43,207 nt of DNA, from IMG/VR virus record IMGVR_UViG_3300018083_000055, positions 1 to 43,207 of that record; one strand, given 5' to 3'. This document shows, one piece after another, positions 1 to 43,207 of the stretch; position 1 is the first letter of the stretch, and every line of letters starts with the position of its first letter. This stretch comes from a virus. The notes below the pieces were generated by a model. The model saw nothing but the letters and a program-made list of their open reading frames with translations, was not told where the DNA came from and searched no databases. The translations under genes and the position numbers were made by a program.

Positions 1-27
1 AAAGCCTTCAATCTCTACTTTAATCAC
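1..27 (-). CDS. 5' end of the HK97-gp10-like gene (continues at 43207)
   Basis: A GTG codon at 27-25 opens a frame of nine codons that leaves the window at position 1 without a stop. If the ends are joined, the next codon is 43207-43205 and the frame runs on without interruption into the gp10-like protein ending at 42653. The joined N-terminus reads MIKVEIEGFGFG, a usual start for this family. The GTG overlaps the stop of the upstream head-closure gene by a few bases, like other coupled genes here. The joined protein would have about 193 residues. Confidence 0.7.
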
Positions 28-355
28 TTGCTTTTTGTTCTGCTGTTATTAAATATTTTCTTTTCTTATCATCTACTAATTCAATACTCGTAATTGTGAA
101 ATCCTGCGATCCATCTCTTAAAATATAATTACTATCTATTGCCAAAGTCGAATTATAATAAATTTCATAGTTATAAGAATTTTGATACCCTTGTGAAAAC
201 CTGTCATAAGTTCTGTTTGAACTATTCTTTTTTCTAAAAGCCCAAACAGTCGCTATCGTAACCCCCGTAGGATTATCCCAAACACCCGCTGCGTCCTTAG
301 TTGGTACAAGGTCAACAAACGAAACCCGCCTTCTTATGCCTCCTATATTACCCAT
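20..355 (-). CDS. Phage head closure / head-tail adaptor protein
   Basis: This 111-residue protein starts GNIGGIRRRV and has the pattern of short beta-rich head-closure proteins (HK97 gp7/SPP1 gp16 type): a basic N-terminus, an aromatic middle, and a C-terminal 'R.YLITAEQ' strand that matches the usual 'Y.I.sv...' ending. Such proteins seal the portal after DNA packaging and join head to tail. It sits between the gp6-like connector (13-nt overlap upstream) and the gp10-like protein downstream, the canonical place. The family call is from length, pattern and position. Confidence 0.7.
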   Translation of the reverse strand: MGNIGGIRRRVSFVDLVPTKDAAGVWDNPTGVTIATVWAFRKKNSSNRTYDRFSQGYQNSYNYEIYYNSTLAIDSNYILRDGSQDFTITSIELVDDKKRKYLITAEQKASD

Positions 356-885
356 TGGTCTTTATGATTGTTTACTAAATCGTTCAAATGTGTCTGACTT
401 AACAACGCAACTTCCTCTCCTCTGTGTTCGAATCTTTTCGCTATTTCATTCAACCAAGCCAACCTTAATCCTTCCGGTAAGGTATTGGCCGTATAACCTA
501 CGTTGTAAATAATTTTCCACTTTCCCCCGCCTACATAACTCCTGAATCTTCCCATTTCAACCTCGTACTCATTATCTAAAATCCTAACCTCGTATTGATT
601 TATTCCCGTCTTCGTATAAGCAGAATCAAACGTAGTCAAAGGCGGAAAAGGAAGATTAAAAGAAGTATCGTAATTAATTAGGATCGTTACCACTTTGTCA
701 ATTAAAGATCGTCCGGTTATATCTTCCAGGTATTGCCTTACTTCTGAATTTAAAGTTGTTAGCCTTGTATCAAAAGAAGTATTCCCAGAATCTATATAAA
801 GATGCTCTTTAATATCAGCAAGGTCTAAGATTTCAGTAGCCCCGACTGAAGAAAATTCATGCGCTATTAATTTACTCTCTTTCAT
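343..885 (-). CDS. Head-tail connector protein (gp6-like)
   Basis: This 180-residue protein has an N-terminal helical segment, 'LDLADIKEHLYIDSG..FDTRLTTLNSEVRQYLEDITGRSL'. That is the hallmark of phage gp6-like connectors: an 'ikehLrid...D..L..li..a....e..tgr.l' helix pair, followed by beta strands and a C-terminal helix. These proteins form a ring under the portal. The start at 885 overlaps the upstream repeat-protein gene by 14 nt, and the stop overlaps the head-closure gene. Confidence 0.8.
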   Translation of the reverse strand: MKESKLIAHEFSSVGATEILDLADIKEHLYIDSGNTSFDTRLTTLNSEVRQYLEDITGRSLIDKVVTILINYDTSFNLPFPPLTTFDSAYTKTGINQYEVRILDNEYEVEMGRFRSYVGGGKWKIIYNVGYTANTLPEGLRLAWLNEIAKRFEHRGEEVALLSQTHLNDLVNNHKDQWVI

Positions 886-2293
886 CGTATATCATTATTG
901 GCCCCGCTCTGCGAGGGCCGGTTAATCTTGCTGTTTTACCATTCAGTTTATATTTACCTTTTCTGAATTGAATAGTATTTATAGATTGATAATTTAACCC
1001 TGCTGCACTACCTGTAAACAAATAACTTCCAGAATCGGCAGTTAATATGTTTGTTTTTACAAATGAAACGTCTTGACCTGTGAAAATGAAACTTCCCGGA
1101 TCAACCATAAAAGCAGCCTGTCCGAATTGTAACGTAGCATCATTGCCGTTAAATAAGTAAGAACCGCTATTTGCTGTTAATGTTCTTTGAACGGTTAATC
1201 CTGCTTGATTACCCGTGAACGAATACGAACCAGAACCACCTAAAACACTCCTTTGGAATTTGATTGAATTTCCTGTTAGCGTGAAACTTCCCGCATCAAC
1301 AGATATAGCAATTCCTTTTATTAAGCTGGCTGCGTTACCATTTAATAAATAACTTCCGCTTCCCCCTGATAAAACCAATCCCCTGTTAAGGTTAACCGTA
1401 TTTCCGGTAAACAAGTAATTTGCACTTCCCGCAATTAATATTTTACTTACTAATAAATTTACTGAATTACCGCTGAAAGTATATGAGCCTGAATTAGCTA
1501 CTAAAGCGACACCCTTAATTAAACTTGCAGCGTTCCCGGTGAAAAGGTAGGTTCCACTTTCGGCAATTAGATTTAACCCCCTGTTTAAGTTTACAGCGTT
1601 ACCGCTAAATGTGTACGATCCGCTTCCCGCTACAACACTTCTATGAAACTTAACCGCATTTCCCGTAAAAGAATAACTACCTGAATCAGCAGTTAATGAA
1701 ACACCCTTAATAAGCCCTGCTGAATTTCCTGTAAAGCTGTATGTAGCTGAACCAGCTGATAAGTATTTATTATAAGTTAGGTTTGCACTATTCCCTGTAA
1801 ATGTATAACTAGCACTTCCCGCAATAAGTTTTAATTGTCTTAATAAATCAACCGAGTTTCCAGTAAGAACATAAGAAGCCGATTCAGCAACTAAGGTTTT
1901 TCCGGTTGTAAATGTTATAGAATTTCCGGTGAATAAGTAAGAAGCCGACCCAGAGACTAAATTTAACCCTCTCAATAAACCAGCACTATTACCTGTAAAA
2001 TTATAAGTCGTAGAAGCAGCAACTAATTTTGAATCCTTTCTTAATGTAGCCGAAGTTCCTGTAAGATTAAACGTTCCCGCATCGGCTACTAATCTATAAG
2101 AACGATTCAACCCTGCACTATTCCCTGTAAGGTTGTAGGTAGCAGAATCAGCCGTTAGTTTAGACGATTTTATTAATGAAGCAGAATTACCAGTAAAGAC
2201 AAAAGCCCCGGCAGCAGCCGTTAAAATAGCTCCCGTTTGAACTATTTTAAACCTCTGAATTAAAACCCTGCTATATGACCTTCCTAATCTCAT
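872..2293 (-). CDS. Repeat protein with about nineteen 22-residue 'SGSYxFTGNxAxL' units
   Basis: This 473-residue protein is built almost wholly of tandem 20-23-residue units. Each begins Leu-x-Ala-x-Ser-Gly-Ser-Tyr, passes through Phe-Thr-Gly-Asn and ends Ala-x-Leu plus six variable residues. About nineteen units fill roughly residues 20-450, and the C-terminus (GPRRAGPIMIYDERE) lies outside the array. The alternating polar/aromatic strands suggest a beta-rich fibre or solenoid. Similar 'aGsf.ltGqdA.L' repeats occur in uncharacterised phage structural proteins. Its place between a jelly-roll protein and the head-tail connectors suggests a virion surface protein. The Ser/Thr/Asn density makes it a plausible glycan acceptor for the nearby glycosyltransferases, which is inference. 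Its start overlaps the previous stop as TAATG. Confidence 0.65.
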   Translation of the reverse strand: MRLGRSYSRVLIQRFKIVQTGAILTAAAGAFVFTGNSASLIKSSKLTADSATYNLTGNSAGLNRSYRLVADAGTFNLTGTSATLRKDSKLVAASTTYNFTGNSAGLLRGLNLVSGSASYLFTGNSITFTTGKTLVAESASYVLTGNSVDLLRQLKLIAGSASYTFTGNSANLTYNKYLSAGSATYSFTGNSAGLIKGVSLTADSGSYSFTGNAVKFHRSVVAGSGSYTFSGNAVNLNRGLNLIAESGTYLFTGNAASLIKGVALVANSGSYTFSGNSVNLLVSKILIAGSANYLFTGNTVNLNRGLVLSGGSGSYLLNGNAASLIKGIAISVDAGSFTLTGNSIKFQRSVLGGSGSYSFTGNQAGLTVQRTLTANSGSYLFNGNDATLQFGQAAFMVDPGSFIFTGQDVSFVKTNILTADSGSYLFTGSAAGLNYQSINTIQFRKGKYKLNGKTARLTGPRRAGPIMIYDERE

Positions 2294-3480
2294 TAATAAG
2301 TATTACTTCTGTTTACTGCTTGATTTATCGAAACTACTTTTTGTTTTGGTTCTGGAAATTCTGCTTCGATCATTATTGCGTCTAAACATTGGTCAGGGTT
2401 TGCATCTTGTGCTAAAAACCTTACTCGTAAATCTGTGAAATCACCATTACCGCCACCCCCTATTACCCATGCACCTGCTGGCCCTGAAGCGTAATGTTTT
2501 CTTGCATAACGATAAGTAGTAACTCCCGCCGCTGCTCCTGTGTCAAATGTTGTATCAAGTGTACCGTTATCGTTTAATCTTACCTGCATCTGGCCTACTG
2601 TTGTAGATATTTGGTGATGAGCCAAAATGACTTCAACCGCTCTTGGTGCAACCTTAGGAGTAGGAACCCCTGAAGCTGGCCCGAATAAACCCTCTACATA
2701 ATCTGTAGCTGCATTTGCAGGAGCAACACCCCTCCAGTTATCAGCTTCGTCAACTGCGCCGCTCGGAAGAGGAACGTCATCAATTAACTGAAATGCTGTT
2801 GTAGTTGCGTTAAGAATATCTACTGCTGTGTTTCCTCTTTGGAAGTCACCGCCACCGGCTATATTGTGAGTGCCATCAGAAGTAACCGTATAAGGTTGTA
2901 TTAATCCGTTCCCTATTGGATAATCAGCCAAAGTTTGAGATAAAATTAAATCATCACAATACCCAGTATAATTTGATGAGCCAGCTGAAACCCTATGTAA
3001 AAAAATAGCATCATAACTTGTAGCTGCTACTGGATTTGTAGCTTGTCCGCAATTATCTCCATCAACACTTACATCGGTTGTCCATGGATTATTACTCGTA
3101 TTAACTTTAATATCTATTCTGTACCACCTATCAACCATAATCAATATGCCAGTTGATCCATCGTTTAACGCTGATCTTGCGTAAATCTTCCCATCTGAAC
3201 TTTCAAATCTTGCTCCTCCTAAATGCGTAGTTGAATTATAAACGGAAACCAAATTAACGTCAACGGCTGGAAGTGAGGAAAAATATAAATAGCATCTTAT
3301 TATTGCAATATTTCCAGCAATAGCAAAAGTAGCATTTGCGCCGGCTGCTGCATTTTGAATCCTTAAACTTCTATTCCCTGTTCTCTTGATAGTAGTATCG
3401 AAAGTTATTGCACCCGTTAGCGTCCAGTGTGCGCCACTAGCCCCGCACTCGAAACCGCAACAAAAAGTAGGACTAGCCAT
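2293..3480 (-). CDS. LamG/jelly-roll-like virion protein
   Basis: This 395-residue protein has an N-terminal half (about residues 5-185) with the layout of a concanavalin/laminin-G sandwich. A Cys-rich start 'CCGFECG' leads to a 'RTGNRSLRI' strand, then 'WYRIDIKVN', 'DVSVDGD' and the closing 'YCDDLILSQTLADYPIGNG', which is typical of phage jelly-roll domains. The C-terminal half is beta-rich and contains 'RAVEVILAHHQISTT', a pattern often seen in phage head-proximal proteins with unknown roles. A decoration or accessory virion role is likely from its neighbours. The ATG at 3480 lies two bases after the stop of the preceding 52-residue gene. Confidence 0.6.
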   Translation of the reverse strand: MASPTFCCGFECGASGAHWTLTGAITFDTTIKRTGNRSLRIQNAAAGANATFAIAGNIAIIRCYLYFSSLPAVDVNLVSVYNSTTHLGGARFESSDGKIYARSALNDGSTGILIMVDRWYRIDIKVNTSNNPWTTDVSVDGDNCGQATNPVAATSYDAIFLHRVSAGSSNYTGYCDDLILSQTLADYPIGNGLIQPYTVTSDGTHNIAGGGDFQRGNTAVDILNATTTAFQLIDDVPLPSGAVDEADNWRGVAPANAATDYVEGLFGPASGVPTPKVAPRAVEVILAHHQISTTVGQMQVRLNDNGTLDTTFDTGAAAGVTTYRYARKHYASGPAGAWVIGGGGNGDFTDLRVRFLAQDANPDQCLDAIMIEAEFPEPKQKVVSINQAVNRSNTY

Positions 3481-4168: not shown

Positions 4169-4597
4169 TTATACGAGTGTTCCAAATCCACCTGTAAAGT
4201 CAATAGTCAGACTTTCGCCATTCTGAAGCGTTAAGTCTGAAGTGTAATCATACCAACCAATTAAAGGATCAGCCGGAGAAGTAGGATCGTCGTTATACAA
4301 AAGAACATAACGAAAAGCCGCCACCGCTCCACCTGAAGCCGTTAATACTAAATCATTCGCTGTGAACGTTACCGTTCCACTTGCTTGCTCTGCTGTGATT
4401 CCTGTTATCACCCTGCTGGATAAATTCGTGTAAGAGATTTGTGTTACATCTGCTAACACGGCATCAGCCGAAGCAGAAGGGGCATTAGCCGCACTACACA
4501 GAGCCACAGTCACCGTACAAGTAGCATCACTTGTAAAGTTGTGAACACCCTTTGATAAATCTTCAACGAACTGGTCGAATTTGTTAAACGTAGCCAT
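4169..4597 (-). CDS. Virion structural protein, 142 aa
   Basis: The protein begins MATFNKFDQFVEDLSKGVHN and continues with Ala/Thr-rich beta strands. 'FRYVLLYNDDPTSPADPLIGWYDYTSDLTLQNGESLTIDF' is a pattern common to small phage structural proteins of the 'K.n.f..fvedla.gvhnl.sdt..' type. It is the first structural gene after the sugar-modification cassette, and its ATG overlaps the stop of the GT4 gene as TAATG. The exact virion position is unknown. Confidence 0.6.
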   Translation of the reverse strand: MATFNKFDQFVEDLSKGVHNFTSDATCTVTVALCSAANAPSASADAVLADVTQISYTNLSSRVITGITAEQASGTVTFTANDLVLTASGGAVAAFRYVLLYNDDPTSPADPLIGWYDYTSDLTLQNGESLTIDFTGGFGTLV

Positions 4598-5625
4598 TAT
4601 ACATAATTTTTAAGTTTGACAGATTGTGTTTCATATAAAAAATTCTCGAATCGTTTACAATATTCTAAAGGGTCATGTTCCTTAGCCCTTATCCTTGAAA
4701 CATTACTCCTTTCTTTATAAAAACTCTTATCATCGAATTTCTTAATCATGTTCACTAAAGAAGTAATATCATACTGATCTGTATCGTCTAAAACATTTCC
4801 GTTATCGTCGAATAAATCACCCTTTCTTAAATCAATATAATTACCTGCATAATCACAGTTCTCTTTTAATCCAGGAGTAGGAGTACATATAACCGGAATA
4901 CCAGAACACATTGCCTCAGTCGCTGTCATTCCCCAGCTCTCGTATTGAGAAGGCATTATTAAAAGCCTTGTTTGTTTATAAATAGGAAGAATGTCAGGAG
5001 TGTTATCAATTACAAAAACGTTTTCCGGTTGTTCTGTTATTTGTTTGTCGTAACTCCCTTTAACCGCTAAGAATCTTTTATCAGGAAATACCTTTGCTAA
5101 CTTCTGTAAGATCCTTCCACCCTTATTAGTGTTTAAATTTATCAAAGTAATAAACTCGTTCTTTTCGGGATCATCACAAACGTTGTACCTGTCATAATCA
5201 ACCGCAGGAGGAACAACTATTGAAGGATATTTATAGTTAAGCGTTTTAGAAATCCATTCTGAATTATAAACTATAAAAGGCGGATTCTTTGCGTTAATTA
5301 TCGAAGCATATTCATGATGATTGTGGACGATCTGAACAACTGGCCGTCCTACATCATGCCCTAGCGTTAATGTCCAATGAGTAAAATCTAAATGAGTAAC
5401 TAAAACGTCGGCCCAACGGTAAGCGTCTAGGTTATCCCTTAATCCCATTACATAAACACCTTCCCAATCATAAGGAACCCTGTAATGAAACTGTTCAGGA
5501 CGTTGTAACATTACTCTAACCTCGTGACCTTGTTTAATTAGGTACTTATTTAAATTGTGTATATATGCTTCCCCTCCACAATTATGGATAGGGGGATAAA
5601 GATGTATAGAATATAAAATTCTCAT
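4597..5625 (-). CDS. GT-B glycosyltransferase, family GT4-like
   Basis: This protein of 342 residues transfers a sugar from an activated donor. The N-terminal Rossmann half begins MRILYSIHLYPP and has the 'GGEAYIHNLNKYLIKQGHEV' glycine-rich acceptor-side motif. The C-terminal half carries the E-x7-E nucleotide-sugar signature (E229 and E237, 'ESWGMTATEAMCSGIPVI'), typical of retaining GT4 enzymes. I chose the ATG at 5625, not an upstream one at 5637, because it forms an ATGA overlap with the fucosyltransferase-like gene and gives the family-typical N-terminus. It is the last gene of the cassette. Donor and acceptor cannot be read from sequence. Confidence 0.85.
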   Translation of the reverse strand: MRILYSIHLYPPIHNCGGEAYIHNLNKYLIKQGHEVRVMLQRPEQFHYRVPYDWEGVYVMGLRDNLDAYRWADVLVTHLDFTHWTLTLGHDVGRPVVQIVHNHHEYASIINAKNPPFIVYNSEWISKTLNYKYPSIVVPPAVDYDRYNVCDDPEKNEFITLINLNTNKGGRILQKLAKVFPDKRFLAVKGSYDKQITEQPENVFVIDNTPDILPIYKQTRLLIMPSQYESWGMTATEAMCSGIPVICTPTPGLKENCDYAGNYIDLRKGDLFDDNGNVLDDTDQYDITSLVNMIKKFDDKSFYKERSNVSRIRAKEHDPLEYCKRFENFLYETQSVKLKNYV

Positions 5626-6410
5626 ATTACAATCCAATCTTTTTGATAACCGTCATTCCAATTCATGTCTCCTGCTTGTGTACCAAACCATCTTTTAGGC
5701 GCAATAACTTTCTTTTCAGGATGTTCAGCAATCGTTGCAGCAAAAGCGGAAAAAGTAGAATTAGAAATAATAAAATTCTTACAAGCCTTCATACTTCTGA
5801 AATCGTCTAAATATGTTTCGTCACCCCTGCTAATTCTAAATGTATAATGATTGCCAGCATCATTTAATTTTTTATAAAATTCATCAATATCATCACTATA
5901 AGCAATAAACACCGTATCCTTCGGCATCATAGACATTGCTTTCATATAATATTCTATTGGCAATCTTGGATGATAAGCGTCCGGGTCATCTATATAATCG
6001 CCGGCCCTGTAATGAACCGCACATAAATTATTAAGCACAGGATCATGGTTTAATTCATCCTTCATCTTAAAGTAATGCCTTACCTTATCTAAACAATGTT
6101 CAAAGTATTTAGGACTTTGCAGGTGTGCGTTAATTGACCAATGTCCACTATTTAAAATGATTTCTTTATACCCCCAGAAATATCCAAGCTCTTGAAATTG
6201 TTCACCGTTTACTCTTGGTAGTGGATTCTCAAAGTACTGCTCAAAATCCGTTACCTCACCGCCGAATAAAGCGTTATCATAATTCCTCCAATGCGGGAAA
6301 GCAAAAGGCTGTCCTGACTTTTCAGCAATACCAATGATACTGGCTATTGTGTAACATTGATTACCGAAACGGCCCAAACCTCCTGTCCCTATTGAAGTAC
6401 TCGTTAACAT
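5622..6410 (-). CDS. GT11-like alpha-1,2-fucosyltransferase
   Basis: The 262-residue protein shows the conserved motifs of family GT11. The N-terminal 'GGLGRFGNQ' spans residues 10-18. The nucleotide-binding H-x-R-x-G-D motif is 'HYRAGDY' at about 133-139. 'SNSTFSAFAA' at about 216-225 matches the family 'SnSSFSwWaa', followed by a 'WFG' near the C-terminus. Known members transfer fucose from GDP-fucose to the 2-position of a galactose-type residue. I see no GDP-fucose synthesis genes, so the donor would come from the host. Coupled to its neighbours on both sides. Confidence 0.85.
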   Translation of the reverse strand: MLTSTSIGTGGLGRFGNQCYTIASIIGIAEKSGQPFAFPHWRNYDNALFGGEVTDFEQYFENPLPRVNGEQFQELGYFWGYKEIILNSGHWSINAHLQSPKYFEHCLDKVRHYFKMKDELNHDPVLNNLCAVHYRAGDYIDDPDAYHPRLPIEYYMKAMSMMPKDTVFIAYSDDIDEFYKKLNDAGNHYTFRISRGDETYLDDFRSMKACKNFIISNSTFSAFAATIAEHPEKKVIAPKRWFGTQAGDMNWNDGYQKDWIVI

Positions 6411-6961
6411 TCAACTAACCATTTTTTATCAAACAACTTCATAGAATCACCTAAAACCTCAGGGAATAATTTATCATATTTTACATCAACAAAAACCATA
6501 TTTCCAGTATGAGCTAAAAGCATATAACCCTTACTCCAACCTAGTTCTAACATAGTCCTAAAACTTGCTCCCCGATTAGGATGGAAAAATTCTAACTCTG
6601 GATCTAAAGAACTATTGATCTCAATAATCACTACCGCCGGTTTCCCTTCATAAGCCTTCCAAACCATATAATCGTTTCCGTCAATGTCAATACTTAAAAT
6701 ATCACACTTAGGCAAATCATTTACGTTGCTTTCGTTGACTTCCATTTGCGCAACTCCCGTTCCTGTTGGAACTAAATCATAAAGGTTCCTGGTAAACTGA
6801 AACTCATTACACAAATCAGCCGTATTTGAACAAAAGAACCCATCGGCCCCGCCGAACTCAACACAATGACCTTCTTTTAATCCGATTCGCTTAATGATTT
6901 CTTTAAGCAGGCCAAATTCACCGTTCTGACTATATAAACCGTTATCTAAATACTTATTCAT
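6404..6961 (-). CDS. FkbM-like SAM-dependent methyltransferase
   Basis: This 185-residue protein has a SAM-binding motif I 'CVEFGGADGFFCSNT' (about residues 33-47) and the acidic motif 'CDILSIDIDGNDYMVWK' (about 86-102). That motif resembles the 'lsiDIDGnDyw' block of FkbM-like methyltransferases carried in polysaccharide loci. FkbM enzymes usually O-methylate sugars. Its ATG overlaps the stop of the 71-residue gene as ATGA, and its 3' end overlaps the GT11 gene. Substrate unknown; a glycan is inferred from context. Confidence 0.75.
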   Translation of the reverse strand: MNKYLDNGLYSQNGEFGLLKEIIKRIGLKEGHCVEFGGADGFFCSNTADLCNEFQFTRNLYDLVPTGTGVAQMEVNESNVNDLPKCDILSIDIDGNDYMVWKAYEGKPAVVIIEINSSLDPELEFFHPNRGASFRTMLELGWSKGYMLLAHTGNMVFVDVKYDKLFPEVLGDSMKLFDKKWLVEC

Positions 6962-7173
6962 TCTTTGTTGTATTGTGTGCTATCAAACTCTACACCTGCG
7001 GAAAACTTACTCCCCTCTTCCCAGTACAATGTTTCAAACTGTTTAAAAAGATCAATTCGCTCCTCTCTGGATAGTTTACCTATTTGAGATAGTATGCTTT
7101 TAACATTGGAAACTTTTATAAGTTCATCCTTTGTTAATTCGTCAAGCTCTTTTAATTCTTTTTCTTTTTTCAT
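6958..7173 (-). CDS. Small charged 71-residue protein in glycosylation cassette
   Basis: A short helical, highly charged protein: MKKEKELKELDELTKDELIK, then 'ILSQIGKLSREERIDLFKQFETLYWEEG'. I recognise no domain. It lies between two methyltransferase genes in the same operon and is coupled to the downstream one by ATGA. It may be a small partner of one of the enzymes, which is inference only. Confidence 0.6.
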   Translation of the reverse strand: MKKEKELKELDELTKDELIKVSNVKSILSQIGKLSREERIDLFKQFETLYWEEGSKFSAGVEFDSTQYNKE

Positions 7174-7183
7174 AGTTATATAT

Positions 7184-7711
7184 TTAGGTTATTAATGTCC
7201 AGTTTTCCCAAACGAAGGGAGTTTGCCATGTTAATTTATGGGTCTTCGATAGTTCGGATTCAATATCCACATAAAGTAGTTCATAACCCGGTACTATATG
7301 AAACTGCACCTGAATATTTTTAATATTACTTATTAACCCCTGTTTTAAAATATAATCAAGCAAAGAATATTCACCCCCTTCAATATTAATCTTCATTACC
7401 GCCACTTCTCTATTCAAATACCTCGCTATATCTTCACACTTTACTTTTCGCCTTTCTTCCTTCGTAAATATTGAACTATATAAAAACACTCCCCCGATTT
7501 CCATTTCTCCATCGTACAACCATGCTGCCCGATCATCTAAAGCCTCAAAACATTCAACTTCGCAACCGTACCTTTTTTTAATCTCATTAGCCCACTCTCC
7601 CCGATAACTTCCAATATCAATACAATAGTCACCCGGTTTAAGGTCGTACTCATACCTTAGCTTCTCTAACCCTTTTTCAATCCATTCTTTTTGATCTCCA
7701 ATACTTACCAT
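7184..7711 (-). CDS. FkbM-family methyltransferase
   Basis: This 175-residue protein has motif I 'DYCIDIGSYRGEW' (about 28-40), an acidic post-I strand 'CEVECFEALDD' and the FkbM signature 'MKINIEGGEYSLLDYIL'. In the family the 'kiDiEGaE' acid binds near SAM. It is close to the short end of the FkbM range. FkbM enzymes O-methylate sugars and other hydroxyls. The start at 7711 overlaps the upstream class I methyltransferase gene by 7 nt. Confidence 0.8.
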   Translation of the reverse strand: MVSIGDQKEWIEKGLEKLRYEYDLKPGDYCIDIGSYRGEWANEIKKRYGCEVECFEALDDRAAWLYDGEMEIGGVFLYSSIFTKEERRKVKCEDIARYLNREVAVMKINIEGGEYSLLDYILKQGLISNIKNIQVQFHIVPGYELLYVDIESELSKTHKLTWQTPFVWENWTLIT

Positions 7712-8250
7712 AAAATTGCAATTGTATCTCTGTAATTAGGATCGAAATCATAAAACTTAAACTCCTTACACATTTCTCTCGTAATTTCTAAGTCGTTATA
7801 ATACCAACCATCAACAAATCCAAAATCTTCTTTATGTTTTAAACAGTCATTTCTTAACCAATTCGCAAAACTTATCAGAGCCTTACCCCTTAACACCCTT
7901 TTTATTTCTTTCAAATAACTTCTTTGACCCTCTAAAGGAAGATGACAAAAAACACCAAAGGAATAAACCACATCGAAACTCTTATCTTCAAACGGTAAAG
8001 TATATCCATCCGTCTTTATATACTTCGCTTTTAATCCTTCCGGCTTCTCAATTCTATCTATACAAACAACTTCGTCAAACTTAGGTACAAGTAATTTATT
8101 CGTCCAGTAACCATTTCCACAACCTATTTCTAAACATCTCCCACCGGGTAACATCTTAATCGCTTCCTGCAATGGGTCTAAAGAAATCGCTTTAAAGTCC
8201 TCCTGATAACCTTCAGGCCAATAGTTTTCTATTAAATTACCACTCTCCAT
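7705..8250 (-). CDS. Class I SAM-dependent methyltransferase
   Basis: With the start at 8250 this protein has 181 residues. It carries motif I 'CLEIGCGNGYW' (about 39-49), a post-I acid 'VVCIDRIE', the motif IV-like 'FDVVYSFGVFCHLPLEGQRSYLKEIKRVLR' and a C-terminal 'RDTIAILW' strand, all typical of the Methyltransf_11/25 group. I preferred ATG 8250 to an ATG at 8304. It has an A/G-rich GAAGAAGAA just upstream, gives only a 14-nt overlap with the upstream gene, and the preceding residues look unrelated. Target unknown; small molecules and sugars are common for this group. Confidence 0.8.
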   Translation of the reverse strand: MESGNLIENYWPEGYQEDFKAISLDPLQEAIKMLPGGRCLEIGCGNGYWTNKLLVPKFDEVVCIDRIEKPEGLKAKYIKTDGYTLPFEDKSFDVVYSFGVFCHLPLEGQRSYLKEIKRVLRGKALISFANWLRNDCLKHKEDFGFVDGWYYNDLEITREMCKEFKFYDFDPNYRDTIAILW

Positions 8251-8959
8251 TTCTTCTTCTATGATGATCGAACATTGCCGGGTAAGTCGCTCCGCCTTTA
8301 TCAATGTGTTCTGAATAAAGAGTAGGCCACCAATGCAATTTCATCCCGTATTTAATTTGCAGACAACATAATATTGCCTGATCGTGTCTGTGTTCTGCAA
8401 ATGTTGGATAATTCCTTTCCATCGGTGAATCATCTATGAACCCTGGTATTTGACACCATGATAACCATTCAGCCATAAATCGTCTTGTGAAATCAGTAAC
8501 CTTCATAAATATTACACTTGCTTGAACCTGTTTAAAATCCTCTAAGTGCTGAATCTGCCCATCATTTGGTATTTTAATTCCTGTTATAGTTTCAAACACC
8601 TTACCCTTACACCATTCAATTTGCTTAAACCCGTTAGTAAAAAGAAATATATCCTGATCCATTTTCTCAATTATGTGTTTAACTTCTTCGACAAACGAAA
8701 CGCCCGCATCACTATATATTAAAATATCACCATCGTTCATTTCCAGTAAAGCCTTATTCACAACATAGCTTTTCCAAATCCAATACCCAGCACCTCTTTC
8801 TTGCATCAAAACTTCTTTATTCACCCCGAAGAAAAAAGGATCAATATCTTTCACCGAATAAGAAAACGTTTTTTCAACTCCATTCCTCAAAGAACTAACT
8901 ATTAAATTCTCCTGTGAGATCGTCATATTATCCGAAGCGTAACAAACTAAAGCAATCAT
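8237..8959 (-). CDS. GT-A-like glycosyltransferase of capsule/LPS type
   Basis: This 240-residue protein has 'RGAGYWIWK' (residues 55-63) followed by 'DGDILIYSDAG' (76-86), then 'HRHDQAIL' (190-197). This set is seen in a family of nucleotide-diphospho-sugar transferases from capsule and glycan loci, in which the Asp-rich strand holds the metal and donor. It overlaps the genes on both sides. Sugar specificity is unknown. Confidence 0.7.
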   Translation of the reverse strand: MIALVCYASDNMTISQENLIVSSLRNGVEKTFSYSVKDIDPFFFGVNKEVLMQERGAGYWIWKSYVVNKALLEMNDGDILIYSDAGVSFVEEVKHIIEKMDQDIFLFTNGFKQIEWCKGKVFETITGIKIPNDGQIQHLEDFKQVQASVIFMKVTDFTRRFMAEWLSWCQIPGFIDDSPMERNYPTFAEHRHDQAILCCLQIKYGMKLHWWPTLYSEHIDKGGATYPAMFDHHRRRNGEW

Positions 8960-9693
8960 AAATTATCTTTTAGCCATTTGTTACCCTGAATATGACAACC
9001 GGTATAATCAGCTTCACAATTCCAAATCTCTGACCATCTCGGCCTCTGATAAGCTACCATTGGATTTGCTACATAACTTTGTTTTAACGGAAGCACATTA
9101 ACCCTTAACCATTCGTCAAAAATCTGACAGCCTTCAGTCTTATATTCATCCGTTACAAACTTGAAATTCTTTAATATAAATTCAACCGCTTCTTTACTAT
9201 ACCAAATCGCATGAGTTTGCCAGCAATTATGAAGCCTTGCAAATCCCGCAGGCGTGCTGTTTGTTGGCATCTGCCACTCACTTTTATGATGCGATCCGTT
9301 AACTACCCCTCTGGTAGGCATTTCCCATACGGTTGTATCCATCCCAATAATATTACAACCTAAATGAACCGTAAAAGCATCTTCAGGAAAGTTGAAATTT
9401 ATTTCACCGTCGAACTTAACATCATCTTCAAAGAGCAATAAATCTTCGTATTCTATTTTTACAGAAGCAACCGCATCGCCACTAATATAATATGTTCCGT
9501 TTTTATGCAAATAACCGCCATCGTTTACAGTAACTTTTTTACAAAGCTCCATACAAGCGTAAACAGATTTATTAAATCCCAAAACTCTGTTTTCTTCCAC
9601 AATAGCGTTAAATGGTTCAACCTCTAACCCTATTCGGTTAAATTCTGCCTCTACAATCGGCCAATCTGATATAGTTATACAAAGTTTTTTCAA
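8956..9693 (-). CDS. Glycosyltransferase, family 25-like (LPS type)
   Basis: This 245-residue protein starts KKLCITISDW. It has the acidic triad 'LLLFEDDV' (residues 86-92), like the 'EDD' of GT25 enzymes, then 'THAIWYSKEAVEFIL' and 'QIFDEWLRVN', matching the 'a.Yl.s..aa..ll' and 'vD..l' blocks of that family. The only usable start with a proper N-terminus is TTG at 9693. A five-codon frame (ATG at 9704, stop TGA overlapping that TTG) could feed ribosomes to it. It is the first gene after the capsid gene and lies behind a strong hairpin. Confidence 0.7.
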   Translation of the reverse strand: MKKLCITISDWPIVEAEFNRIGLEVEPFNAIVEENRVLGFNKSVYACMELCKKVTVNDGGYLHKNGTYYISGDAVASVKIEYEDLLLFEDDVKFDGEINFNFPEDAFTVHLGCNIIGMDTTVWEMPTRGVVNGSHHKSEWQMPTNSTPAGFARLHNCWQTHAIWYSKEAVEFILKNFKFVTDEYKTEGCQIFDEWLRVNVLPLKQSYVANPMVAYQRPRWSEIWNCEADYTGCHIQGNKWLKDNL

Positions 9694-9705
9694 TTCGATT
9701 TCATT

Positions 9706-9733
9706 AAGGGGGCTTTTTACACCCCCCTTTTTT
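9706..9733. terminator. GC stem-loop between capsid gene and sugar-modification cassette
   Basis: A 7-bp stem (AAGGGGG/CCCCCTT, 9706-9712 with 9723-9729) encloses a 10-nt loop. On the plus strand it is followed by six T, a canonical intrinsic terminator. On the minus strand, the direction of the operon, the T run precedes the stem and only TT follows it. There it may act as a partial terminator or a 3' RNA stabiliser that keeps capsid mRNA above cassette mRNA. Confidence 0.6.
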
Positions 9734-9753: not shown

Positions 9754-10953
9754 TTAGGTTATAACAGCAGTTATAAACGCATCAGGACGGAAAATTGCAA
9801 GCCCTTCTGTTCTTTCCAAAAGGAACGCAATTTCATTCGTCGTAAACAATGAAGCGTGAGAATCACTTTGACGTAATCTCAAACCTTCACTTTGTACGAT
9901 AGCTGCCCTTGTCCAATCACCTACCAGAACCCGACCACCTGTAAGCCAGTTAACCGGGTAAATAGGACGGCCAAGAACTCTTGTTACTCCATTCTGATCA
10001 ACACTTACCACAGGAGGCCCTGAATAGCTTTCTCCCGCAGTACCTGGACGAAGCAATGAAATACCAGCCCAAACATTTGGATCAACCGCAATCGCATTAG
10101 GCGTAAACTTCGCTGCAATCAAATTCTTCAAATAGATAACCAACTTATCAGCAACGTTTGGAGTTGTTACACCCGGAACGCCTGTTGTAGTTGTAGATCC
10201 ACTTGCAGCAGCTACCAATGTGTTTGCAAAGTTTGTATCCTCTGATTCCTCCATTTGGTTCATCATTGATTCAGGCAACCATGATTGCAGGAATAAGATG
10301 TTCCTTAATGACTGACGGGAAACAACCGCATAAGCAGCCATAGGAAGCAATGTCAAGGTCTGCATTGTGTAATCACGGTCAATCTGTGGTTTACTTGCTG
10401 CCTCCGTAATACGGCCAAAAGAACCTTCTCCAATCGGAGTGTTTGCTCTTGGGTATTGTACGAAGTCAGTTTCAGAAATGATCGTTCTTACCAAATTACG
10501 GAAGTGGAATTGTCCTGTTGGCTCCATACCCGGCCTCCAATCCAAATAGCTGATAAAATTATCAACCGTAAGATTAGCCGAAGCAATGTTGGCTACTGTT
10601 TTGATCTCTTTAGGTCTCATAAGAGAACCGGAAGCCGATTGCATAATATCTTCTTTTGCTTCACCGATTGCCCTTGCCATTTCATTCGCAATTGTACCAC
10701 GAAGCCCCTTGAACTCCATTGTAGTATTTCCCAAACGTCCGCTACGAGCTTTCAGGTTCTTCATTTCCTCTGCCTGGTCGCCAATTGTTCCTTCGAGTTC
10801 AGCAACTTTCGCAAGTGTTTCTTTTGCTTTTTTCTCCCTTTCTTTTTCGAGTTTTTCGCTTTCTTCTTTATACTCTGCAAGCTCTTTAGAGTATTTTTCG
10901 GATAGACTTTTGAATTTTCCATCAATGTGGTCTACCGCATCTTTAATTTCCAT
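9754..10953 (-). CDS. HK97-fold major capsid protein with N-terminal scaffold domain
   Basis: This 399-residue protein begins with a charged coiled coil (about residues 10-75, rich in KEREKKAKE repeats). That is the delta/scaffolding region normally removed by the prohead protease. The HK97 shell domain follows: 'NFISYLDWRPGMEPTGQFHFRNLVRTI', 'GSFGRITEAASKPQ', 'AYAVVSRQSL', a P-domain stretch 'PNAIAVDPNVWAGISLLRPG', 'VLGRPIYPVNWLTGGRVLVGDW' and the C-terminal 'RTEGLAIFRPDAF'. It lies directly downstream of the protease. Expected to be the most abundant virion protein. Confidence 0.92.
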   Translation of the reverse strand: MEIKDAVDHIDGKFKSLSEKYSKELAEYKEESEKLEKEREKKAKETLAKVAELEGTIGDQAEEMKNLKARSGRLGNTTMEFKGLRGTIANEMARAIGEAKEDIMQSASGSLMRPKEIKTVANIASANLTVDNFISYLDWRPGMEPTGQFHFRNLVRTIISETDFVQYPRANTPIGEGSFGRITEAASKPQIDRDYTMQTLTLLPMAAYAVVSRQSLRNILFLQSWLPESMMNQMEESEDTNFANTLVAAASGSTTTTGVPGVTTPNVADKLVIYLKNLIAAKFTPNAIAVDPNVWAGISLLRPGTAGESYSGPPVVSVDQNGVTRVLGRPIYPVNWLTGGRVLVGDWTRAAIVQSEGLRLRQSDSHASLFTTNEIAFLLERTEGLAIFRPDAFITAVIT

Positions 10954-19056: not shown

Positions 19057-19791
19057 TTAAGGCGTACATGCACAATCAAAAGCCGGGCTTATTTCTTCTA
19101 AATCATAATCCTTAAAAAGATTATTCCTGGCTATGTTTCTCAATTGCCTTATTGTCGTTCCTTCAAAATAAGTATGCCCAAGTTTCTTTTTACCTTCCAT
19201 TCGTTCTTTACTCATATCCTCATCAGCAATCCACTTATCTGCAAGTTCTGGATATTTAGCCATAATAGCCATAAGAGCGTTCTTCCCTTTCATAAAACAC
19301 AAGTCACAGTTGCCAAGTATCGAAGGTATTTCTAATTTATAAGGCTTATGTTTCCAAAATTCATTTACCATTTGTTTATCAATGCCATCATTGTATAAAG
19401 GGAAAACGTCCGTAACCTTTTTCCACATTTGTTTTCTCTTCTTTACTCTATCTTGTTCATCTGATCTGAAGCCAACAAAATTTTCATAAACCCTGATTTT
19501 TTTACTTACTAAATACCTTCTTGCTGTTTTAATCTTTAATTCAATTGTGCATTTCCTTTTCCATTGGTTGGGAATCATCATTTGCTTTTTTAAAACACCT
19601 TCAAACCCAAATGGGTGAGAAAGACGAACAATAGGAATATTTTCAAAAGCCTCAAAGTCGTTTATAAATTTATAGGTTTTAGGATGTTCACGTCCTGTAT
19701 CGCAGAACAGGACAATATCACCTGGTTGATAATATTTAATAACCATATACCCGGAAGTCTTGCCCCCGCTAAAGTTAATTACTCTTTGCAT
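19057..19791 (-). CDS. PAPS reductase-like PP-loop ATPase family protein
   Basis: This 244-residue protein has the N-terminal PP-loop 'NFSGGKTSGYM' (SGGKTS at 8-13), then 'LFCDTGREHPKTY' (29-40), both typical of PAPS reductase/DndC-like proteins. Cysteines C81, C162-x2-C165 and C240/C242 could hold an Fe-S cluster. Phage members have been discussed for sulfur or DNA modification, but function is not established here. The downstream neighbour is a GNAT protein. Start ATG 19791. Confidence 0.75.
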   Translation of the reverse strand: MQRVINFSGGKTSGYMVIKYYQPGDIVLFCDTGREHPKTYKFINDFEAFENIPIVRLSHPFGFEGVLKKQMMIPNQWKRKCTIELKIKTARRYLVSKKIRVYENFVGFRSDEQDRVKKRKQMWKKVTDVFPLYNDGIDKQMVNEFWKHKPYKLEIPSILGNCDLCFMKGKNALMAIMAKYPELADKWIADEDMSKERMEGKKKLGHTYFEGTTIRQLRNIARNNLFKDYDLEEISPAFDCACTP

Positions 19792-19850
19792 TTATCTTTT
19801 TTCCATTTTTCCTGTAATAAAGATGCTGTAAAACGTCTAACATATTCATA
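19779..19850 (-). pseudogene. Possible C-terminal remnant of a small gene
   Basis: In a different frame from the HNH gene, 'NYEYVRRFTASLLQEKWKKD' and four more residues run to a TAA at 19779. The stretch looks protein-like but has no convincing ATG start (only a weak GTG upstream). It could be the 3' end of a small gene whose 5' part was displaced when the adjacent HNH homing endonuclease gene inserted. A 24-codon ATGA-coupled frame also overlaps it. Confidence 0.25.
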
Positions 19851-20316
19851 GTTTATTAAGATTAGCAAACTCACCATGTAGGGTTTTGGCGATATTATTA
19901 TATGCGAGTGCAGCCTCTATTTCAGTATCGTAATAACCTATGTATCTACAAACCTTATCCTTGCATATTTGCGCCCGCCACCTATTACAATGCTTCGCCC
20001 ACGAAACACCTTTATATTTAGATGTTGTATTCTTATTAGAAGATGTGTTAATGTTGTTTTGCGCTTTAGTACACAGACGCAAATTATTACGTTGGTTATT
20101 TAATCCGTCTCCATCAATGTGATCAATTGTAATATCTTTATCATTTACACCCATTAAAAACCTGTGCAGATAAGTAAATTTATTATTTATTGCTGCTGAA
20201 GCGTAAAAGGAGTTACCACACTTATGAAGATACCATTTATGGTTAAAAACCAAATCATAATCGGCATCGTCTATTAATGTAATAATACCCTTTCGTGTAA
20301 GTTTTATTCCAATCAT
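19846..20316 (-). CDS. HNH homing endonuclease with AP2 DNA-binding domain
   Basis: This 156-residue protein has an HNH nuclease core with 'YLHRFLMG' (about 49-56), 'DHIDGDGLNNQRNNLRLCT' (65-83) and an AP2-like DNA-binding domain at the C-terminus ('KYKGVSWAKHCNRWRAQI', then 'YIGYYDTEIEAALAYNNIAKTLHGEFANLN'). HNH-AP2 proteins are usually free-standing homing endonucleases that copy themselves into intron- or gene-free sites. It splits a lipoprotein gene from the PAPS-reductase-like gene. Its ATG overlaps the lipoprotein stop (ATGA). Confidence 0.85.
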   Translation of the reverse strand: MIGIKLTRKGIITLIDDADYDLVFNHKWYLHKCGNSFYASAAINNKFTYLHRFLMGVNDKDITIDHIDGDGLNNQRNNLRLCTKAQNNINTSSNKNTTSKYKGVSWAKHCNRWRAQICKDKVCRYIGYYDTEIEAALAYNNIAKTLHGEFANLNKL

Positions 20317-41774: not shown

Positions 41775-42200
41775 TTACGCTCCTATTGTTATAGCTCCCT
41801 GTCCACTAAACGTAGCCTGGAAATTCATTGCTGCGCCTTGTGCTACTTGATTTGTCAAAGTTGTGATATACGCCTGACCAGTATGTAAAAGGTCTGTACC
41901 CGCTGAATCAGGATAGTTAAACCTTACATAAAGTAAAGTTTGAGCAGCCCACCACTTAGAAATTTGCTCATAACTTTCCTGTGTACCTATGTTCGGAGTT
42001 GTGTTTACAATGGCATCAATATCGAAAGTCCATTGATTAGAACCCAGACCAATAATAGGACCGCAATCAGAATCTTCGGTATTTACCGGAGTAGTACCAT
42101 TGAAGGTTACTGATTTTTTACATACGATCATTTTCCAACTAGACCCGTCCGTAGAAACATAGAACGGAACCTGCGAACTCTGTAAAGCTGTTACACTCAT
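41775..42200 (-). CDS. Major tail (tube) protein
   Basis: This 141-residue protein starts SVTALQSSQVPFYVSTDGSS, then 'CKKSVTFNGTTPVNTEDSDCGPIIGLGSNQWTFDIDAIVN' and 'LLYVRFNYPDSAGTDLLHTGQAYITTLTNQVAQGAAMNFQATFSGQG'. This matches the tube-fold order of siphophage major tail proteins, which stack as hexameric rings around the tape measure. It lies directly before the chaperone. Expected to be the second most abundant virion protein. Confidence 0.8.
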   Translation of the reverse strand: MSVTALQSSQVPFYVSTDGSSWKMIVCKKSVTFNGTTPVNTEDSDCGPIIGLGSNQWTFDIDAIVNTTPNIGTQESYEQISKWWAAQTLLYVRFNYPDSAGTDLLHTGQAYITTLTNQVAQGAAMNFQATFSGQGAITIGA

Positions 42201-42212
42201 TTTGTTTAAATT

Positions 42213-42656
42213 TTAAATTGTTTGTGTTATTAAATGTTCCCATCGAACTATTTTTTGATAATATTTATATTGCCCGTCATCCTCTGTTAGATAACTTTCT
42301 GACTGAGGACTGACACATAAAAACTGAAACCCTGAAGCATCTGTTAATCCATCGTTATTAGCAGAAGTGATTACTAATTCCTTAATCTGCTCGTCTATGC
42401 TTTCTACTATGTCATCTTTGATCCCTGTTTGACCCGAAAACCTTGCTGTAATATGTGTTATAATAATCGGTCTGGTAAAATGTGCATCTGCTGTGCTTTC
42501 GTTTGTCGAACTCTCCGCCCTGATAACTACATAAAAAGTACCCGGATTGCCGTCTGCGTCCTCACGAAATACTTTAACCTGATTTCCTGAAATGGTTATC
42601 TGCCCATCAAGTTTAGTAAACCAAGCAGTCTTTAATCTTCCAATCGGGTTCTTCAT
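42213..42656 (-). CDS. Tail completion/minor virion protein, 147 aa
   Basis: This basic-then-beta protein starts MKNPIGRLKTAWFTKLDGQI. It has 'FYVVIRAESSTNESTADAHFTRPIIITHITARFSGQTG', 'DIVESIDEQIKELVITSAN' and a C-terminal 'YQKIVRWEHLITQTI'. The layout is close to DUF3168-like tail-completion proteins found between gp10-like and tube genes. Family assignment is by position and pattern; ATGA-coupled upstream. Confidence 0.6.
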   Translation of the reverse strand: MKNPIGRLKTAWFTKLDGQITISGNQVKVFREDADGNPGTFYVVIRAESSTNESTADAHFTRPIIITHITARFSGQTGIKDDIVESIDEQIKELVITSANNDGLTDASGFQFLCVSPQSESYLTEDDGQYKYYQKIVRWEHLITQTI

Positions 42657-43207
42657 AACAGTTGATCTATCTTTTGATTTATCCTTGCCATCATTTTAGG
42701 AATTACTATTCCTTGTTGCTTGAAAAAATACGGATGAGCCTTTACACCATTTTTTAAAATACTCATAATTATCGGCCATGCTGCTGCGTAATCTTCGGCA
42801 AGTTGATCTACTTTACTTCCTGCCCTTCGCCTTGATTTAATATTATACCTTCCCGCAATACCTTTCCTTTTTACCCAATTAACTATCGCTCTAACCATGT
42901 CCTTAAAAGTTCCCTCACCTTTCCCCCTGAACCTTGCCGCCACCGCTTCGGCCCCTGGTACTGGTCTATAATTTCCTTTTGTTCCAAATTCCATATAAGC
43001 GGCCGCAGCACTTTGAGAAAATATATCATAATCAGCCGATCCTAATCTTTTATAAGCAATGTGATTTTTTAAGAAAGCCTGATCAACCGGGGCATCTTGC
43101 TGCGCTCTTATTACAAACTCCCTGGCACCCTCCTCCATTTCAGCGTCCGCAATATCTTGCACGTGCGAAGGCAGCTCTTTAAAGAGTGTTTTTAAAGCCC
43201 CAAAGCC
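42653..43207 (-). CDS. HK97-gp10-like tail completion protein, cut by window end
   Basis: This frame has 'QDIADAEMEEGAREFVIRAQQDAPVDQAFLKNHIAYK' (helix, then the loop typical of gp10-like proteins), 'AAAYMEFGTKGNYRPVPGAEAVAARF' (the 'yvefGT' motif), and 'HPYFFKQQGIVIPKMMARI' near the C-terminus, all hallmarks of HK97 gp10-family proteins. An apparent GTG start at 43162 is internal: the frame is open to 43207 and continues in frame at position 1, where a GTG at 27 starts it. Confidence 0.8.
   Translation of the reverse strand, partial: GFGALKTLFKELPSHVQDIADAEMEEGAREFVIRAQQDAPVDQAFLKNHIAYKRLGSADYDIFSQSAAAAYMEFGTKGNYRPVPGAEAVAARFRGKGEGTFKDMVRAIVNWVKRKGIAGRYNIKSRRRAGSKVDQLAEDYAAAWPIIMSILKNGVKAHPYFFKQQGIVIPKMMARINQKIDQLL

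Follow-up and report, generated by a model that had tools for sequence, protein, structure and literature searches.

The window analysed here is the whole 43,207-nucleotide (nt) stretch of the IMG/VR virus record IMGVR_UViG_3300018083_000055, a circular record in which the neck gene continues in frame over both window ends. On the minus strand the genes run in the order terminase, portal, MuF, protease, major capsid protein (MCP), a cassette of glycosyltransferase (GT) and methyltransferase genes, phrog_644, accessory virion genes, head-tail adaptor, head closure, neck, and tail. The cassette, located within the virion gene block and co-directional with it, is probably the core of a locus that writes a glycan onto a virion protein. 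As described in the original prediction, eight open reading frames (ORFs) lie directly 3' of the MCP gene, and virion genes resume after them. From 9693 to 4597 they encode GT25-like, GT-A-like, Methyltransf_11, FkbM-like, 71-amino-acid (aa), FkbM-like, GT11-like, and GT4 proteins. The genes had been called overlapping, which holds for neighbours sharing 1-68 nt, the sole exception being a 10-nt gap (7173/7184). The features of the locus and its surroundings are as follows.

9754-10953, minus strand: MCP, 399 aa, phrog_10 major head protein (4e-30); the constant gene 5' of the cassette and a candidate acceptor
9706-9729, minus strand: GC-rich hairpin AAGGGGGG-TGTAAAAAG-CCCCCTT, located past the MCP stop and ahead of the first enzyme gene; minimum free energy -14.3 kcal/mol, z -1.7; terminator- or attenuator-like, without a U-tract
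8956-9693, minus strand: GT25-like glycosyltransferase, 245 aa, TTG start; profile and fold matches
8237-8959, minus strand: GT-A-fold glycosyltransferase, 240 aa, from a family without a Pfam model; predicted structure
7705-8304, minus strand: class I S-adenosylmethionine-dependent methyltransferase (Methyltransf_11); PF08241, 4.2e-15, above cut-off
7184-7711, minus strand: FkbM-type methyltransferase 1; PF05050, 6.4e-4, 20.3 bits, below the 22.7 cut-off
6958-7173, minus strand: 71-aa protein, role not assigned; relative in locus L010 (38%)
6404-6961, minus strand: FkbM-like methyltransferase 2, a weak family call in a conserved family; PF05050, 0.03, 14.9 bits, below the 22.7 cut-off
5622-6410, minus strand: GT11-like glycosyltransferase, motif HYRAGDY; PF01531, 3.7e-15, above cut-off; phrog_2644, 3e-38
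4597-5637, minus strand: GT4 glycosyltransferase, the near-invariant last enzyme; PF00534, 4.4e-14, above cut-off; phrog_26352, 1e-59
4169-4597, minus strand: phrog_644 protein (2e-12), first gene past the cassette; few relatives have one
872-2293, minus strand: repeat protein, earlier proposed as acceptor
343-885, minus strand: head-tail adaptor (Ad1), phrog_442 (2e-11); fixed 3' landmark in relatives
20-355, minus strand: head closure
42653-43162, minus strand: neck
41775-42200, minus strand: major tail

For two of these genes the true start likely lies inside the listed ORF, namely at ATG 5625 for GT4, which is supported by alignment, and at ATG 8250 for the class I methyltransferase.

Relative loci surveyed are denoted by L numbers. 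The family assignments in the original prediction held for GT4, GT11, and Methyltransf_11, all above the Pfam cut-off, for GT25 by way of relatives and fold, and for GT-A by way of fold. Both FkbM proteins of the window fall under the curated cut-off, which is exceeded by the FkbM proteins of L194, L212, and L234; FkbM-type 1 carries an invariant K-I-N-I-E-G-G-E that is conserved in four aligned relatives. Neither the GT25-like nor the GT-A-like protein of the window has a Pfam match of its own. Within the GT25-like alignment (A10), 17 of 27 members match Glyco_transf_25 (PF01755), and the profile matches solved GT25 enzymes (PDB 9crz, 8xlz, and procollagen galactosyltransferase 1). The AlphaFold2 model of the window protein, which contains a FEDD motif, had a predicted local distance difference test score (pLDDT) of 85 and matched GT25 structures in Foldseek (E 3e-6). 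The GT-A-like family yielded no Pfam or PHROG match; its AlphaFold2 model (pLDDT 89, predicted template modelling score 0.90) was closest to GT-A enzymes (E 2e-7, probability 1.00). A conserved Y-x-DAG is found at the possible DxD position of this family (window 8237-8959). The window GT4 protein has a Glycos_transf_1 domain, and the EX7E motif is present in 212 of 218 GT4 proteins surveyed. The GT11 protein has a Glyco_transf_11 domain in which, as in most relatives, the second Arg of HxRRxD is missing from the motif HYRAGDY; only 3/146 GT11 proteins surveyed (duplicates included) contain HxRRGDY. Since the motif is missing from the window protein and most of its relatives, use of GDP-fucose is doubtful, and the fucosylated glycan suggested originally is weakly founded. 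No 19-aa stretch above hydropathy 1.0 was found in any cassette protein.

Counts among relatives refer to sequence-distinct loci, not independent lineages. The window MCP is 54-80% identical to that of nine IMG/VR relatives. The same ordered enzyme set was found right after the MCP in L003-L007 and L010, with a portal identity to the window of just ~31-35% in those where the portal was seen. Three IMG/VR searches seeded with the MCP, a further one that used the window MCP, and another of genome contigs yielded a cassette-blind set of 111 distinct loci; the MCP alignments behind two of the searches (A1, A8) had been built from loci first found via the window MCP or GT11. A cassette enzyme was present in 94 of the 95 distinct loci in this set with at least 1 kb past the MCP. 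The sole locus without one, L015, is a rearranged contig with an MCP fragment and other head genes inverted, and is probably a chimeric assembly. Furthermore, GT4 was the last enzyme between MCP and adaptor in all 67 distinct cassette-blind loci showing both. When IMG/VR was searched with GT4 instead, the MCP was upstream in 42/42 cases and the adaptor or connector genes were downstream in 68/69. In most relatives GT4 is immediately followed by the adaptor gene (median gap -4 nt), and in L004, L007, and freshwater relatives it runs directly into that gene. In one scan, at least 598 IMG/VR stretches encoded GT4 relatives, of which the best 80 were examined. The gene order recurs in scores of contigs and is beyond chance. 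A private horizontally acquired island was also considered, and is ruled out by conservation and synteny in relatives.

Among cultured phages, the MCPs nearest to that of the window belong to Flavobacterium phage 11b and Cellulophaga phage phi10:1 (26-35% identity); both phages have connector genes soon past the MCP and no cassette in the MCP-connector interval. A contig of 41.9 kb from a Saprospiraceae metagenome-assembled genome (L100), possibly a binned phage, carries the locus, which was not found in 297 further Saprospiraceae genomes nor in 394 further genomes of the phylum. That the host belongs to the Bacteroidota is a guess.

The enzymes accompanying GT4 differ among loci. The fullest form combines GT25-GTA-GT11 with FkbM and/or Methyltransf_11 enzymes (the window, L004, L100, L171, and others). 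Elsewhere GT4 is accompanied by GT25-GTA-GT11 alone, by GT25 alone (L122, L123), by a class I methyltransferase (L142 type), or by FkbM (L194, L212, L234), and it occurs without any partner in L230 and L273. A tree built from 50 GT4 proteins requires at least 16 enzyme-class changes; some of the classes include loci that had been put under 'other' until their FkbM gene was identified. The varying partner sets and repeated class changes show that GT4 is near-constant while the other enzymes are exchanged. A glycosyltransferase that has no partner needs to act directly on the final acceptor, and the case for GT4 as the putative priming enzyme depends mainly on this. The minimal loci (GT4 alone, FkbM with GT4, and class I methyltransferase with GT4) fit an order in which GT4 would act first and methylation would serve as a cap. 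GT25, which diverges in step with the MCP, was considered as the MCP-priming enzyme and dropped as the principal explanation, since it is missing from methyltransferase-GT4 and GT4-only loci that retain GT4. Tentatively, and with somewhat less than even confidence, the interval may be regarded as a capsid glycotype locus, with GT4 as fixed in the head block as the connector genes and accessory enzymes repeatedly exchanged, so that the surface chemistry of the particle would diversify like that of bacterial O-antigen loci.

Other genes also occur in this part of the genome. NUMOD4-HNH homing-type endonuclease genes are inserted inside the cassette of L005 (14004-14531) and L010 (11505-12050), and a DNA N6/N4 methylase and a RyR-domain protein were observed inside the MCP-adaptor interval (L116, 10483-11091; L147, 3585-3944).

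Of 151 sequence-distinct loci, 135 (89%) have a GC-rich hairpin followed by T no more than 85 nt past the MCP stop, by a definition set after viewing 41 examples and then applied unchanged to all gene ends. The same hairpin and U-tract definition was satisfied after twelve other genes in 0-2% of cases and in 2/151 shuffles. Stem sequences 3' of the MCP vary among loci; in the window the stem is present and the T-run is missing, which places its hairpin outside the definition. A terminator-like hairpin after the MCP in most relatives suggests that the enzymes are made below the level of the MCP, together with the connector genes. Most transcripts would likely end after the MCP, with the enzymes and connector genes expressed by read-through. 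The expectation that the enzymes are made with the virion proteins is borne out by gene position, at a level probably lower than that of the MCP. No excess of sigma-70 promoters or terminators was seen when the window was scanned for them, and an Rfam scan of it gave no match.

The cassette genes are under purifying selection. In close pairs, GT4 had a ratio of nonsynonymous to synonymous substitution rates of 0.03-0.09, and the other glycosyltransferases reached values as high as 0.21; these ranges overlap those of the structural genes. Across 22 loci, mean pairwise identity was 48-49% for GT4, GTA, and GT11 versus 42% for the MCP and 38% for the portal.

The invariant capsid-side position, the soluble enzymes, purifying selection, and the precedents discussed below make a virion-linked, O-methylated glycan the best reading, which retains the O-methylated part of the original proposal and leaves fucose doubtful. 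We consider it likely, on the basis of predicted gene products and their order, that the MCP-adaptor interval is a virion glycan-writing locus. The soluble phage glycosyltransferases would act one after another in the cytoplasm on a virion protein, most likely the MCP, which is the simplest candidate because it is always adjacent to the locus. The initial sugar would probably be attached by GT4 and the glycan lengthened by the GT25-like, GT-A-like, and GT11-like enzymes, with the methyltransferases capping it through O-methylation. The GT25 family likeness, which takes in protein-directed collagen galactosyltransferases, may be counted in favour of this reading. It is probable that these phages decorate their own particles with sugars, in a coat whose chemistry differs by lineage. 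Conceivable benefits include masking from glycan-binding or antibody-like recognition, and particle adhesion or solubility.

Several points weigh against glycan writing on the MCP. Every universal virion protein is linked to the locus as much as the MCP is, and the two window FkbM assignments stand below the Pfam cut-off. In favour of the MCP, the distance between MCPs, once the distances of portal, MuF, neck, and adaptor are controlled for, correlates with that of GT25 (0.41), GTA (0.48), and GT4 (0.43) and not GT11 (-0.05), but physical linkage confounds these values (protease-MCP 0.34, protease-GT4 0.58). Furthermore, MCPs are 45-80% identical in nearby relatives and ~30% in the freshwater clade, yet GT11 holds 53-58%, suggesting either that the acceptor-recognising factor tolerates change in the MCP or that the acceptor is not the MCP. 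Each IMG/VR search retained the best 80 matches, and the contigs are often fragments.

The repeat protein (872-2293), rich in Ser, Thr, and Asn, had been proposed as acceptor, and this protein or another accessory virion protein could be the specific acceptor in place of the MCP. It shares an operon with the cassette, L169 has a related repeat protein within its own cassette, and in L003 a 708-aa protein shortly past GT4 matches both the 2293-3480 and the 872-2293 proteins of the window. The survey of relatives for co-occurrence of cassette and repeat protein went against the proposal, with detectable REP/LAM/P644 homologues in just 6/306 annotated loci and GT4 directly adjoining the adaptor gene in most relatives. 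The repeat protein was accordingly rejected as a universal acceptor, and a specific accessory acceptor appears quite improbable. In L169, relatives of the repeat protein and of phrog_644 are situated between two FkbM genes (4794-7042).

The enzymes could instead act on targets other than the virion. The GT25 and GT4 families are common in lipopolysaccharide (LPS) or polysaccharide synthesis, and the enzymes could remodel the host's surface glycan (LPS, capsule, or other) late in infection, preventing superinfection or rebinding of progeny. A changing enzyme content would suit changing host glycans, and a host-surface role for phage glycosyltransferases has been offered as published opinion (PMC10202952). 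Such remodelling is unlikely given the fixed position between MCP and connector genes in 67/67 loci and the lack of membrane segments in the cassette, which leaves no flippase or polyprenol-linked glycosyltransferase as in serotype conversion; the gtr hallmarks, a membrane flippase or bactoprenol glycosyltransferase, were not found among the cassette proteins. Modification of phage DNA or other nucleic acid is a further alternative, as phage glycosyltransferases acting on modified bases are well known. Nucleic-acid modification was also proposed for freshwater phage glycosyltransferases by the authors of PMC10202952. The late capsid-operon position, the presence of four glycosyltransferase types with FkbM-type methyltransferases, and the lack of any base-hydroxymethylase noticed among the window proteins scanned (the scan covered part of them) render this role very improbable. 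A glycan on the virion itself accommodates the fixed position and the soluble enzymes.

Virion glycosylation in mycobacteriophages (Corndog gp35-38, Che8 gp110, Myrna) is alike in having phage-encoded glycosyltransferases in the virion block near the capsid genes. Corndog encodes an O-methyltransferase and glycosyltransferases among its virion genes (PMC4351075), and PMC12363180 reports it as glycosylated; the same paper, with PMC4351075, reports glycosylated capsid and tail tube proteins for phages such as Corndog, Che8, and Myrna. Corndog differs in having its glycosyltransferases at the portal-protease position and in its host group, and the loci described here contain up to seven enzymes, with a near-invariant GT4 and swappable partners over a whole uncultivated lineage. 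In chlorovirus PBCV-1 (A064R, A111/114R), viral cytoplasmic glycosyltransferases and a methyltransferase build an O-methylated glycan on the MCP (PMC7826918). The system predicted here is similar in these components, whereas PBCV-1 infects eukaryotes, has a genome of 330 kb, and carries an N-linked glycan, and the homology seen is a weak GT-A fold match only. Streptomyces phage TurkishDelight, an otherwise dissimilar phage, carries a distant GT4 relative (gp20, L309; 30%) between major capsid and tail/adaptor genes. In contrast to the loci here, gp20 is one long protein annotated as glycosyltransferase with no enzyme cassette, and no published function was found for it. In serine-rich-repeat adhesin loci (GtfA/GtfB), a GT4-family priming enzyme and cytosolic extending glycosyltransferases are encoded beside the acceptor gene; these loci differ in being bacterial, with a secreted product and a dedicated export system.

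Glycosylated capsids have been described for a small number of actinobacterial phages, and the trait is generally treated as accessory. What is new, to our knowledge, is that an uncultivated and diverse environmental lineage keeps a near-invariant GT4 in its head block and repeatedly exchanges the partners of that enzyme; no paper on the locus of this lineage was found in the open literature. The pattern suggests selection for virion glycan diversity in the environment. With natural forms ranging from minimal (GT4 alone) to maximal (seven enzymes), one can test directly which enzyme primes, what the acceptor is, and what purpose phage surface glycans serve. In the non-structural region of the window, a PAPS-reductase-domain protein (19057-19791) and an AP2/HNH endonuclease (19846-20316) were also observed.

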